A program made the position numbers and the translations under genes. Positions 4,175 through 59,562 of a stretch of 64,000 nt of DNA are shown here, in pieces. The stretch is from assembly GCF_000301075.1 (NCBI RefSeq), contig NZ_JH932293.1:1860524-1924523 (forward strand). The letters are read 5' to 3'. Numbering within the stretch: the stretch's first letter is position 1; each line of letters begins with the position of its first letter. The notes beneath the pieces are model-generated. The model saw nothing but the letters and a program-made list of their open reading frames with translations. It searched no databases and was not told the origin of the DNA. The stretch is from Bergeyella zoohelcum ATCC 43767. Lineage in GTDB: Bacteria; Bacteroidota; Bacteroidia; Flavobacteriales; Weeksellaceae.

Positions 4175-4309
4175 AGGTTTGAAATATGCGTGCAAAAATC
4201 GTGAAATTTAATGGAATGTGCAATGAATGTTTATTGGAGAGGTTAGAGATTGGAAATTAGAGATTAGAAAGCTAATCGTTAATAGCCAACTGCATGGAAT
4301 AAAAAATAT

Positions 4310-4317
4310 TATCTTTG
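4310..4317 (+). promoter_or_regulatory. Promoter of the CPBP-rdgB-rnz operon
   Basis: TATCTTTG matches the -7 consensus TAnnTTTG. It lies 16 nt upstream of the TTG start of the CPBP gene, so the leader is very short. Confidence 0.6.
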
Positions 4318-4333
4318 CAATAAATCAACTGTA

Positions 4334-10227: not shown

Positions 10228-10252
10228 AGCATTGTGAGTGATGATTTAATGA

Positions 10253-10441
10253 TCCATCTAGGAAATTAAATGTCCCACTTAGGAAATTGAATATCCCATC
10301 TAGGAAATTAAATGTCCCATCTAGGAAATTGAATGTCCCACTTAGGAAACTAAATATCCCATCTAGGAAATTAAATGTCCCACTTAGGAAACTAAATATC
10401 CCATCTAGGAAATTAAATGTCCCACTTAGGAAATTGAATAA
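10253..10441. repeat. Tandem repeat, nine 21-bp units
   Basis: Nine contiguous 21-bp units begin at 10253, 10274, 10295, 10316, 10337, 10358, 10379, 10400 and 10421. Two variants mostly alternate: A (CCCATCTAGGAAATT...) and B (CCCACTTAGGAAA...), so units 5-8 form a 42-bp higher-order repeat. They are near-identical with no spacers, so this is not a CRISPR. As 21 is a multiple of three, one frame on each strand stays open with a 7-residue period, but I see no start signal or signal peptide. It lies between the stop of the SGNH gene and a terminator, so it may sit in the 3' end of that mRNA. Confidence 0.92.
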
Positions 10442-10494
10442 TCCTCAAATAAATGCCTTGAACTATAATAAAACGGACATTTGATGTACAACAA

Positions 10495-10530
10495 AAAAAT
10501 ACCGACGCTCCTATGGAAGTCGGTATTTTC
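10495..10530. terminator. Bidirectional terminator between convergent genes
   Basis: The arms AAAATACCGAC (10496-10506) and GTCGGTATTTT (10519-10529) are perfectly complementary around a 12-nt loop, with A-rich and T-rich flanks. It can end both the plus-strand SGNH transcript and the minus-strand deacetylase transcript. Confidence 0.88.
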
Positions 10531-10563
10531 CGTTAAAAAGATAGATATTACAATTTTTTAGAT

Positions 10564-38905: not shown

Positions 38906-40051
38906 TTATATTTCTTCGCTCCAAACCACTCGTTTTACATAATCGGTGTAGGAAATGATAATTCGCACCATTTTCTCCGACACATTAGGCATAGAATAGT
39001 CCGCAACGGAGCGGAAATTGCGTTGTTCGCCTATTTTTTGAGTTTGCAGCTGAACCAATCCCTGCAAAATTCGTTCCTTTGATAACCCTACCATCATCAC
39101 ACTTGCCTCTTCCATTGCCTCTGGACGCTCGTGTGCCTGACGAATATTCAACGCTCTGAAATTCAATATAGAAGATTCTTCCGAAATGGTTCCAGAATCC
39201 GACAATACAGCAAAGGCGTGCATCTGCAAAGCGTTGTAATCGTGAAAACCTAAAGGCTTCAAAAACCGAATATTAGAATGCATCTCCACTTTCATTTTAT
39301 CGATCATATTTTGGGTACGAGGATGCGTAGAGACAATCACTGGGTAATTATATTTCTCTGCGATAGCATTAAGGGAGTCCATCAGCCCTCGGAAATTCTT
39401 CTCCGAATTGATATTTTCCTCTCTATGAGACGAAACTACAAAGAATTTTCCTTTTTCTAAATTCAATTTCTCCAAAACATTAGACGACTTGATTTGAGGT
39501 AAATAATAATTTAACACCTCAAACATTGGCGAACCTGTTTTAATAATTCTATCTGCCGGCAGCCCTTCTCTCAATAAATATTCCCTTGCAATATCAGAAT
39601 ATGTGAGATTGATATCTGCCGTATGATCTACAATCTTCCGATTGGTTTCTTCGGGTACTCTTTGATCAAAACAGCGATTCCCTGCTTCCATATGAAAAAT
39701 AGGAATATGTCTTTTCTTTGCTGGAATAGCACACAAGCAAGAGTTAGTATCCCCAAGCACCAAAAAAGCGTCGGGCTTTAATGCTTCCAAAAGTGGGTCT
39801 ATTTTTATCAAAATATTTCCTACCGTTTCGGTGGCAGTTTTCCCTGCTGCTTCTAGAAAATAATCCGGTTTACGAAGCCCTAAATCTTCAAAAAATATTT
39901 GATTCAGCTCGTAATCATAATTTTGTCCTGTATGTACAATGATATGTTCCACCGCTTCAGAGGCATCTAAAGCAGATAACACTCTTGATAGTCTAATAAT
40001 CTCGGGACGGGTACCCACCACCGTCATTACTTTTAATTTTTTCATATTCAT
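38906..40051 (-). CDS. fnlC: UDP-N-acetyl-L-talosamine 2-epimerase FnlC/WbjD (UDP-GlcNAc 2-epimerase family)
   Basis: Last step of UDP-N-acetyl-L-fucosamine synthesis, C2 epimerisation. It has 381 residues. GTRPEIIRLSRVL, HTGQNYDYELNQIFF, LGDTNSCL, HMEAGNRCFD, VVSSHREENIN and SDSGTISEESSIL follow the 2-epimerase fold; the HMEAGNR and SGTISEE contexts match the WbjD/CapG subgroup. An alternative ATG two codons in is equally good. It lies 5 nt before wbuB. The four-helix-bundle gene separates it from fnlB. Confidence 0.93.
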   Translation of the reverse strand: MNMKKLKVMTVVGTRPEIIRLSRVLSALDASEAVEHIIVHTGQNYDYELNQIFFEDLGLRKPDYFLEAAGKTATETVGNILIKIDPLLEALKPDAFLVLGDTNSCLCAIPAKKRHIPIFHMEAGNRCFDQRVPEETNRKIVDHTADINLTYSDIAREYLLREGLPADRIIKTGSPMFEVLNYYLPQIKSSNVLEKLNLEKGKFFVVSSHREENINSEKNFRGLMDSLNAIAEKYNYPVIVSTHPRTQNMIDKMKVEMHSNIRFLKPLGFHDYNALQMHAFAVLSDSGTISEESSILNFRALNIRQAHERPEAMEEASVMMVGLSKERILQGLVQLQTQKIGEQRNFRSVADYSMPNVSEKMVRIIISYTDYVKRVVWSEEI

Positions 40052-40210
40052 TTTTTTAAAGGAAAAAGGAAAAAGTTTAAAGGAAAAAGGAATTGTTGAT
40101 TTAATATATTTATCAGAAGTATTTAAATTTACGACTCAATGATAATCAATTAAATAAAATAATTTATTTTTATCGATAACTACAAATACTTAACAATACC
40201 AGGAAAAAAA

Positions 40211-40228
40211 TCACATACTTTTTACTTC
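40211..40228. repeat. Direct repeat flanking the four-helix-bundle gene, left copy
   Basis: Identical 18-bp motif to 40636-40653. A second, imperfect pair (AAGGAAAAAG...GTTTAAAGG) lies at about 40067-40091 and 40604-40629 in the same relative order. Confidence 0.75.
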
Positions 40229-40242
40229 TCTCTTTTTACTTT

Positions 40243-40587
40243 TCATCCTCTCGCCTTTTTTACTATCGCTCCTAAAATATTTTTAATTTCTTTTAATTCC
40301 TGAATAATTTCTTCAATTTCTAAATTAGTGTTTTCCACTTCTTTTATAAGCCTTAACCAATAATTAGTTTCTCGTGCCTCTTTGAGTGAGATGTTCACTT
40401 TATTAACAAAATCAGATTTAGAAGAACCTGCTTGTGCTTCTTCATAATTTGCACCAATTGAAGTAACTGCTCTTATCAATTGATTTTTAACCACCTTCAT
40501 CTCTGTGGTATTAGAAAGATCTCTTGATAGTTTAATAACCCTCACAGCAAAATCAAAAAATCGTTGTAATAAATCATTATCTTTCAT
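40243..40587 (-). CDS. Four-helix-bundle protein (23S rRNA intervening-sequence family)
   Basis: A 114-residue all-helical protein starting MKDNDLLQRFFDFAVR (ATG 40587; ten more open codons upstream are rejected). The pattern VVKNQLIRAVTSIGANYEEAQAG ... ISLKEARETNYWLRLI is the S23/IVP family signature. Family members occur in rRNA intervening sequences and as orphan inserts. The function is unknown. It interrupts the fnl operon and is bracketed by direct repeats, so it looks like an inserted unit. No transposase is visible. Confidence 0.93.
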   Translation of the reverse strand: MKDNDLLQRFFDFAVRVIKLSRDLSNTTEMKVVKNQLIRAVTSIGANYEEAQAGSSKSDFVNKVNISLKEARETNYWLRLIKEVENTNLEIEEIIQELKEIKNILGAIVKKARG

Positions 40588-40635
40588 TACTAATCTTTTA
40601 CTGAAGGAAAAAGACAAAAGTTTAAAGGGAAAAAT

Positions 40636-40653
40636 TCACATACTTTTTACTTC
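40636..40653. repeat. Direct repeat flanking the four-helix-bundle gene, right copy
   Basis: Same 18 bp as 40211-40228, 425 bp away in the same orientation. It is followed by a pyrimidine-rich tract of ACTTTTT repeats running to about 40691. Confidence 0.75.
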
Positions 40654-40688
40654 CCACTTTTTACTTTTTACTTTTTACTTTTCACTTT

Positions 40689-41819
40689 TTACTTTATAAC
40701 CTCTACTTCCTCAAAATAAGTATCTGCATCTTCTGGATTATACGGTTCGTTGATCCAAAAAATGGTATAAAGCTCTTCTTCTCCTATGTTTTTAATGTTA
40801 TGCGTGTACCATATCGGCATATCTACATAAGCAGGTTCATTACCATCCAAATAGAAATCCAATACTTCTTCGGTGCCTATTTTTCGTAGCTGAATTAGAG
40901 CTTTTCCTTTGATTACCGCAAACCTTTCTATTTTTCTAGTGTGGTAATGGTTACCTCTTGTAATCCCTGGTACTGTGGTGGAAAACGAACATTGCCCACC
41001 AATTCCCAAACGAATGACTTCTACAAAAGCCCCTCTAGGGTCTGTATGTTGGGTAAATTTTACTGGAAAATGCGTTGCATAATCCATATAGGAACGATAG
41101 GTATTGAATAAATTAAGCTCGAAAGGAGTGTTTAAAGCAGGTATTTCACCTTTTTCAAAATATTTTGCCTTGTATTCTTCTAACAATGCCAAAACCTCCG
41201 ATACTTTTTTCACCGCAGTAGGCTCCACAAAATATTGTGCCTTGCTCTCCCCTTTTCGGATTTCTTTTAAAATCACAGCAACCAATTCCTGTACATATAT
41301 CAATTTTACTTCGCCATCATTTGCAACAGTAGGCGTTTGATTATGTGCGAGTTGATAACAAAAAGTCGCAATAAATGAATTATAAAACGGCTTACCAAAC
41401 GCACCAAAAACATTCGGAATGATAAGTCCTGTAACTTTTCCACCGTTCGTATTTGCCCAATTTACCAATGCCTCTCTGCCCTCTTTTTTAGACTTCCCAT
41501 AAAGATTATCCCGCTCCTCCTGCGTAGAAGAAGAAATTAGGATATGTGCTTTCGAGCCTGTTCTTTCCAAAGCTGCTATCAACTTATTAACCAAACCTAC
41601 ATTGGTTTCGTAAATGACTTGCTCGCTTTCGTGACGATTCATCGCTGCCAGATGCACAATCACATCACACTGAGAGACAAAGGCGTCTAATTCATTTTCA
41701 TTCTCGAAAATAGATTTATTATAAGGCACTCTTTCAAACTCTTCTGTAAAAAGCCCTAATGTATGATATAGATGCTTTCCCACAAACCCCTCTTGCCCTG
41801 TAATTCCTATTTTTTTCAA
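40689..41819 (-). CDS. fnlB: FnlB/WbjC/CapF bifunctional epimerase-reductase
   Basis: Middle enzyme of the UDP-L-FucNAc pathway (C3 epimerisation and C4 reduction). It has 376 residues. The N-terminal SDR domain begins GITGQEGFVGKHL and has VHLAAMNRHES and the catalytic Y-G-K-S-K segment (LYGKSKKEG). The C-terminal zinc cupin, residues ~255-370, has GNHYHTRKIERFAVIKG and TIFWINEPYNPED. This two-domain layout is specific to the CapF group. It lies between the WxcM-like cupin gene (68-nt gap) and the four-helix-bundle insert. Confidence 0.95.
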   Translation of the reverse strand: MKKIGITGQEGFVGKHLYHTLGLFTEEFERVPYNKSIFENENELDAFVSQCDVIVHLAAMNRHESEQVIYETNVGLVNKLIAALERTGSKAHILISSSTQEERDNLYGKSKKEGREALVNWANTNGGKVTGLIIPNVFGAFGKPFYNSFIATFCYQLAHNQTPTVANDGEVKLIYVQELVAVILKEIRKGESKAQYFVEPTAVKKVSEVLALLEEYKAKYFEKGEIPALNTPFELNLFNTYRSYMDYATHFPVKFTQHTDPRGAFVEVIRLGIGGQCSFSTTVPGITRGNHYHTRKIERFAVIKGKALIQLRKIGTEEVLDFYLDGNEPAYVDMPIWYTHNIKNIGEEELYTIFWINEPYNPEDADTYFEEVEVIK

Positions 41820-42400: not shown

Positions 42401-42741
42401 TGCTCAACAACTTTTTCCTGTATTTAATTAATCCATTCAACAATTTAGCTATTTCTTCTACTTCTTTTTGAACACTTTCTAATTCGCTCTCATTTATATA
42501 ACCGATATTTTTTGGCAATAATCAATTGTGTATCTAACTCCATCAAACTTCCCAACGCAATATACAAGAAACGAATATATTCTTTATCAGAATCCTTAGC
42601 TGCACCCTCTGGAATATTTGAAGGGATAGAAACAAACGCTGTACGCAATTGATTTGTAAGACCATAAATCTCATTTGAAAGGAATTTATTGGTCAATTGA
42701 TAGATTTTTGTTACTAAATCCATCGATTTTTTCCCATACAT
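42393..42741 (-). pseudogene. Four-helix-bundle protein gene with a frameshift
   Basis: The main frame (start 42741) encodes 83 residues: MDLVTKIYQLTNKF ... LRTAFVSIPSNIPEGAA ... ALGSLMELDTQLIIAK, an S23/IVP-family protein, then stops early at 42490. Family members have about 115 residues. Removing one base from the run of six T at 42508-42513 (plus strand) restores a frame with NIGYINESELESVQKEVEEI and a stop at 42393. The break is a 1-bp homopolymer insertion: mutation, sequencing error or slippage switch. Confidence 0.85.
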
Positions 42742-42801
42742 TCAACCTCTTGTATATCATAAATTCACTTCTTGTTTTCTATTCTCCATTCTCCCCACTC
42801 T

Positions 42802-59470: not shown

Positions 59471-59562
59471 TTTAATTTTGATTAAAAGATTAATTAAAGA
59501 ATTAGGTAATTAGGTAATTTGATAATTATCTCATTCCCAAATTATCCCATTCTCACATTAAA

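Follow-up and report, generated by a model that had tools for sequence, protein, structure and literature searches.

An S23-family gene lies within heptad arrays in the fnl operon

The window analysed here, a stretch of 64,000 nucleotides from Bergeyella zoohelcum ATCC 43767, contains an fnl operon in which, in agreement with a preliminary description of this DNA, an S23-family gene splits fnlB from fnlC (Table 1). Profile search assigned the encoded protein to TIGR02436 (E 9.5e-28; 96.6 bits against a cut-off of 24) and to PF05635 (E 7e-21; 75.4 bits against a cut-off of 33.8), the neighbours also being identified by profile, and the protein matched PDB 2rld, a solved S23-fold structure, over 111 residues (E 1.5e-20). 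Its open frame reaches back to a TTG at 40617. The unit is located between the two fnl genes and not inside an rRNA gene; Rfam gave no meaningful match in this region, and no relative was found among viral contigs with this S23 as the query.

The preliminary description had reported two types of repeat flanking the gene. Both are real, and their order was confirmed as AAGGAAAAAG block, 18-bp block, gene, AAGGAAAAAG block and 18-bp block. The 18-bp repeat, TCACATACTTTTTACTTC, has exactly two copies in the window (40211 and 40636), and copies of AAGGAAAAAG lie at 40059, 40066, 40080 and 40604; the longer repeat blocks share 91% identity over 43 nt (40201/40626) and 84% identity over 38 nt (40051/40596). 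However, both sequences belong to an (AAAAAGT)n array and its complement, and they are therefore not two independent repeats but arrays of 7-nt units (heptads) placed in inverted arms. The first heptad opens with the fnlB TAA, and the sense run from this stop codon reads TAAAAAG TGAAAAG TAAAAAG TAAAAAG TAAAAAG TGGGAAG TAAAAAG; the complement, of the CTTTTTCC type, ends the unit ahead of fnlC. The insert is real but wider than first described: it begins at the stop codon of fnlB and reaches the start of fnlC (approximately 40052–40688), and no other spacer in the window has a period-7 signal as strong as that of its flanks. A basic layout of direct repeats was discarded, since the inverted relation dominates across loci; the direct copies in this unit are present because each side carries both array orientations. 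A 17/18 match at 39982/40521, considered as a flank repeat, was judged coincidental, with each copy inside a coding sequence.

Table 1. Positions (in the window) of the S23 units, their arms and the neighbouring genes
Feature	Position	Strand	Basis or remark
fnlC-type (WecB/FnlC-type) UDP-GlcNAc 2-epimerase gene, downstream neighbour	38906..40051	(-)	TIGR00236, E 5.8e-71
Outer right arm, complementary heptads, adjoins fnlC start	40052..40091	(-)	sense CCTTTTTCCTTTAAACTTTTTCC
AT-rich spacer within the unit	40092..40201	(-)	from sequence
Second sense-type heptad block	40202..40242	(-)	direct repeat of outer left arm, 91%/43 nt
S23-family four-helix-bundle gene	40243..40587	(-)	114 aa from ATG
Inner complementary block	40603..40635	(-)	sense CCCTTTAAACTTTTGTCTTTTTCC
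Outer left arm (sense strand), directly from fnlB stop codon	40636..40688	(-)	~seven AAAAAGT-type heptads
fnlB-type reductase gene	40689..41819	(-)	NF047837, E 6.7e-75, below curated cut-off
Second S23 unit of the fnl operon, between fnlA and fdtA	42402..42801	(-)	broken gene 42402-42741
ORF-less arm pair	59471..59562	(-)	GGTAATT-type heptads + complement

The same genome carries further S23 copies

Seven matches to PF05635 were found in the 2.33 Mb genome. The fnl operon and a suf-type operon each contain two of them; one separates groES from groEL, another lies between a pair of fad-type genes, and the last, a fragment, precedes an rmlB-type gene. Gene names without a profile match or annotation, including those of the neighbours of these copies, were assigned by eye. 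Three of the seven copies are broken or truncated, and nearly all have short repeats on both sides, each copy with a type of its own. One internal TGA breaks the copy that lies between fnlA and fdtA; this copy matched TIGR02436 over its 83-residue open part (E 9e-28) and has only a weak left arm (42742–42801). The ORF-less pair at 59471–59562 shows the heptad theme of a suf-operon S23 unit (L005). As proposed previously, the insert is repeat-flanked and has no transposase of its own. Neither a transposase nor a reverse transcriptase accompanies the S23 unit, and the RVT_1 profile had no match in this genome, so that no reverse transcriptase was found. No recent second-site copy was seen within one genome, the best pair having 72% nucleotide identity, and thus jumping can be deduced from site shifts between species only.

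Other arrays were also observed. Between divergent genes at 4196–4333 of the window, a TTAGAGA-type heptad array adjoins a different array without an S23 gene, and between convergent genes at 10228–10563 lies a 21/42/63-bp tandem repeat with approximately nine copies of ATTAAATGACCCATCTAGGAA, unrelated to the heptads. Solo (AAAAAGT)-type arrays without S23 are present in the genome at 206971–207018 (L237), 750822–750862 (L234) and 1927557–1927583 (L244), two of the three directly behind a terminator-like hairpin.

S23 genes of related genomes are framed by inverted heptad arms

The S23 family was present in 134 of the 150 family-level relatives, with up to 17 copies each, and approximately 100 S23 loci were taken from these relatives. 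Of the 106 S23 genes for which both neighbours were seen, 103 share their direction with the two neighbours; the median spacer in these loci is 39 nt upstream of S23 and 45 nt downstream. For 50 non-redundant loci, comparison of the left spacer with the reverse complement of the right one gave a mean local score of 16.06, against a mean of 9.5 and a maximum of 10.96 in 5000 permutations of the arm pairs, indicating that the repeats exceed general low-complexity spacer sequence, the concern raised in the preliminary description. Autocorrelation z values at lags 7, 14 and 21 were 16, 15.6 and 9.2 for the left spacer and 16.7, 13.7 and 6.0 for the right; no lag-7 or lag-14 peak was present in the S23 ORF or the neighbouring genes. 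The period-7 signal switches on at the upstream stop codon (0.29, 0.50 and 0.57 in neighbouring bins) and fades shortly ahead of the downstream start codon. Stop trinucleotides recur in phase in the relatives, at +7 and +21, so that the native stop codon often lies within the first heptad. Arm sequence varies by locus yet follows the S23 lineage, and because of this link the S23 gene is taken to be an integral part of the unit rather than the cargo of another element. In three congeneric species (L053, L081 and L083), very long AAGTTCAC/AAGTGAAG arrays of unequal length surround an S23 gene that is identical or nearly so.

Inverted arms around an ORF could also act as RNA. The arms would pair in the operon mRNA, RNase III would cut the stem and the S23 RNA would be released as in the 23S rRNA intervening sequence (IVS), with the stem under selection. 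The IVS of Coxiella burnetii speaks for this explanation, with an ORF of the same family placed in a stem of inverted ends, heptameric direct repeats at the ORF and excision by RNase III (PMC4990558), as does the finding that RNA duplexes of own arms are stronger than those of swapped arms (-20.6 compared with -10.9 kcal/mol). However, such a model predicts cis covariation of the arms and a bias towards the mRNA strand, and neither was found: when own and crossed arms were compared within a site, own arms were better in 14 and worse in 12 of the 33 pairs, and the mRNA strand was not favoured (22/50). With no cis base-pair covariation detected between the arms, the RNA stem is unsupported as a selected feature, and we consider this explanation unlikely.

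Operon junctions are found empty, ORF-less or filled

Empty sites, which the preliminary description had proposed to look for, were found. Among the fnlB–fnlC junctions of 30 genomes, nine carry S23 units and nine others have the two genes joined directly (14–55 bp); at least three separate S23 lineages are represented among the fillers, with different heptads. At an argC–argD-type junction in 14 species of one genus, nine sites carry a filler of ~420–432 bp, three are empty, with 17, 21 and 30 bp between the genes, and one has an arm pair of 56 bp without an ORF. The groES–groEL junction of 90 genomes contains S23 units in at least 20 and inverted heptad pairs without an S23 gene in approximately 20, most of them ~100 bp long; some genomes have chimeric pairs, and in several the junction is short and has no array. 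The ORF-less derivatives, arm pairs of ~100 bp, form a class of their own, and the few longer S23-less pairs at groES–groEL (~260 bp) may be something else. The sampled genomes of two genera (g14 and g25) had no S23 match, and their groES–groEL junction is short and array-free. In another genus (g20), ORF-less pairs at this junction (L256–L259) have different heptad themes on the left and the right, as if recombined from two units.

Comparison of close relatives revealed the exchange of whole units. Loci L057 (genome G104) and L014 (genome G108) have flanks that are more than 99% identical (1445/1452 and 1421/1431), and this identity runs to the stop and start codons, with unrelated S23 units in between. 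L014 and L019 share a unit identical at 429 of 432 positions, all three differences being in the ORF, and the upstream flank falls immediately to 72–86 identities per 100 nt; the downstream flank has 80–98. Comparable unit swaps were seen at a fadB–fadA-type junction. The suggestion of a non-autonomous mobile unit is thus borne out as far as whole-unit exchange between close relatives is concerned, whereas dependence on a known transposase is unsupported.

These observations bear on two further explanations. In the first, the spacers are low-complexity sequence only and S23 is an ordinary resident gene, which would fit the arrays without S23 in the window (4196–4333 and 59471–59562) and elsewhere in the genome. 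It fails to account for the empty, filled and exchanged states, for an inversion beyond all permutations and for lineage-specific arms; the sampled S23-free genomes of g14 and g25 have a short junction devoid of arrays, and the exchange of units within 99%-identical flanks contradicts it. We regard it as extremely improbable. In the second, the unit is MITE-like and owes its mobility to a transposase or reverse transcriptase that acts in trans from elsewhere in the genome, which would agree with a unit lacking a recombinase and with arm pairs that are MITE-like in having no ORF. However, the genome is free of RVT_1 matches, the ends vary by lineage and follow the S23 protein with no common terminal sequence, and no target duplication was evident in the empty and filled sites compared at the fnlB–fnlC and argC–argD-type junctions. 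Mobilisation of this kind therefore seems very doubtful.

Arm sequence follows the S23 protein across phyla

Within the family, S23 pairs from different sites with at least 60% protein identity had a mean arm k-mer cosine of 0.37, against ~0.17. The link between arm and protein was visible within the family only at this level of identity, and a simple Mantel test on all different-site pairs was not significant (r 0.03). Heptad themes are shared between sites: several genera have TTAGAAG arms at two sites, and arms of the AGAGCCA/AGAATCA type occur at three.

One scan of 84,980 species yielded 80 S23 loci from more than 20 phyla. Both neighbours are co-directional in 50 of 69 loci, and only two S23 genes are antisense to both. 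For 71 loci the inverted arm score was 18.55 (permuted maximum 11.24), with lag-7 z values of 18.3 and 16.9. Protein identity correlated with arm similarity (r 0.158, permuted maximum 0.103 in 3000 permutations, p ~0.0003), and for pairs of at least 50% identity the arms were more alike than in any permutation. Rfam applied to 20 distant loci gave only one unrelated match (pan motif, L188) and no rRNA. Cyanobacterial plasmids provide textbook cases of S23 with heptads. Nostoc edaphicum has the arrangement (GGAGTAG)n–S23–(CTCCCTA)n between nrdB and nrdA (L128), (AAAAGCT)n arrays accompany S23 between cas6 and cas4, a junction with S23 in L134 and L136, and a further unit lies between cas10 and cmr3 (L135). 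The S23 gene between nrdB and nrdA opposes both neighbours, a rare orientation. On a plasmid of Gemmatirosa (Gemmatimonadota; L137) the arm period is 8 nt and not 7 nt (GGGCAGGA), and one S23 homologue (L205) lies on a contig labelled Methanophagales archaeon, which may reflect an archaeal carrier or a binning error.

The S23 protein is under purifying selection, with a median dN/dS of 0.20 over 121 pairs. Such a value would be expected of a regulatory module that benefits the host, in which S23 binds heptads in the mRNA, sets the ratio of upstream to downstream products and spreads because it helps. The clustering of S23 genes by site across genera is in line with this possibility, and MacGregor (2015) made the case that intergenic heptamers are regulatory (PMC4679880). 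On the other hand, the sites are functionally unrelated and patchily occupied, the junctions work without an S23 unit, and three of the seven copies in the genome studied here are damaged. A regulatory module thus appears improbable.

S23 units as probable exchangeable cassettes of operon junctions

The feature noted in the preliminary description exists and is far more general than stated there: the unit in the fnl operon is one copy of a very widespread cassette between genes of the same operon in many bacterial phyla. We favour, with a probability of roughly 70%, the reading that this unit represents a mobile and exchangeable cassette, composed of an S23 gene and inverted, lineage-specific heptad arms and inserted at an operon junction in the sense orientation. 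This reading builds on what was directly observed, namely the architecture and its generality, purifying selection, the three junction states, whole-unit exchange and the tie between arm and lineage. Any model must account for ends that match the protein lineage and for the precise replacement of one unit by another, from stop to start codon.

In the cassette reading, the unit would insert between two operon genes, immediately after the stop codon of the first and oriented with transcription, so that the host operon transcript would supply S23 expression. An S23 oligomer may recognise its own heptads and join the two arms. Homologous junctions would be the main route of spread, through horizontal exchange, and new junctions would be reached by rare jumps via host recombination or repair, in which microhomology of the stop codon with stop-containing heptads would probably assist. 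The unit would survive as a selfish element tolerated by operons. Against this reading, no recent second-site copy was seen in one genome; at many sites S23 genes are clustered by site across genera, and vertical descent with recombination could give the same pattern; units at one site could be exchanged by ordinary homologous recombination between flanks; heptad arrays also exist without S23; and S23 has no known catalytic domain.

A more far-reaching proposal, which we hold tentatively and at somewhat less than even odds, is that S23 units form a separate class of mobile element, in which a small structural protein with cognate heptad ends enters junctions of transcribed operons by an undescribed mechanism that uses no nuclease, transposase or reverse transcriptase. 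Heptanucleotide repeats would then be full, ORF-less or solo ends of such units, and the 23S IVS would be an rRNA-borne branch. There is a serious chance that S23 units deserve a class of their own, beyond S23/IVS elements.

Comparison with known systems

Small S23 genes are common across many bacterial phyla but unexplained, as is the cause of the intergenic 7-nt repeats, which were noted long ago. The cassette reading ties together the S23 family, the 7-base repeats of bacteria and the intervening sequences of 23S rRNA. The hallmark of the last is a stem that is cut by RNase III without ligation. The link of S23 units to these sequences, made in the preliminary description, is reasonable: in both, an S23 ORF lies within inverted sequences in a transcribed unit, with a patchy, horizontally acquired distribution. 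Unlike the 23S IVS, the units described here lie between protein genes of operons and have arms with no detectable cis covariation.

Heptameric repeats have been described in Xanthomonas (GGGAATC) and Nostoc (PMC4692102), as cyanobacterial STRRs (PMC2670836) and in Beggiatoaceae (TAACTGA; PMC4679880). The arrays reported here resemble STRR-type repeats in being degenerate tandem 7-nt units that are intergenic, lie between aligned ORFs and near stops, and occur as inverted pairs, but they differ in forming the ends of S23 units or of ORF-less derivatives. A word search of these three papers (PMC4692102, PMC2670836 and PMC4679880) gave no mention of S23, and no link between S23 and heptameric repeats was found in the literature searched, which covered few subscription papers, so that an earlier description is possible. 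MacGregor (2015) asked which protein accompanies heptamer repeats and raised the idea of a repeat-binding protein as a mobile element (PMC4679880). S23 is a candidate for this partner, and each S23 protein with its own heptads makes a testable pair.

Like MITEs and REPIN/REP sequences, the ORF-less derivatives are short, intergenic inverted repeats; unlike them, they have period-7 arrays, share no terminal sequence and show no target duplication in the sites compared. Avd, the accessory protein of diversity-generating retroelements, is a structural homologue with a PF05635-like four-helix bundle (PMC10053308), but unlike in Avd systems, the genome here has no reverse transcriptase by the RVT_1 search. 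Finally, 23S_rRNA_IVP genes in cas operons, for example between cmr2 and cmr3, have been read as having a CRISPR-associated function (PMC3936711). They belong to the same family and are explained here as operon-junction cassettes. This explanation provides an ordinary cause for the presence of S23 genes within cas operons as well as within rRNA genes, and it cautions that the membership of S23 in an operon should not be taken as function.
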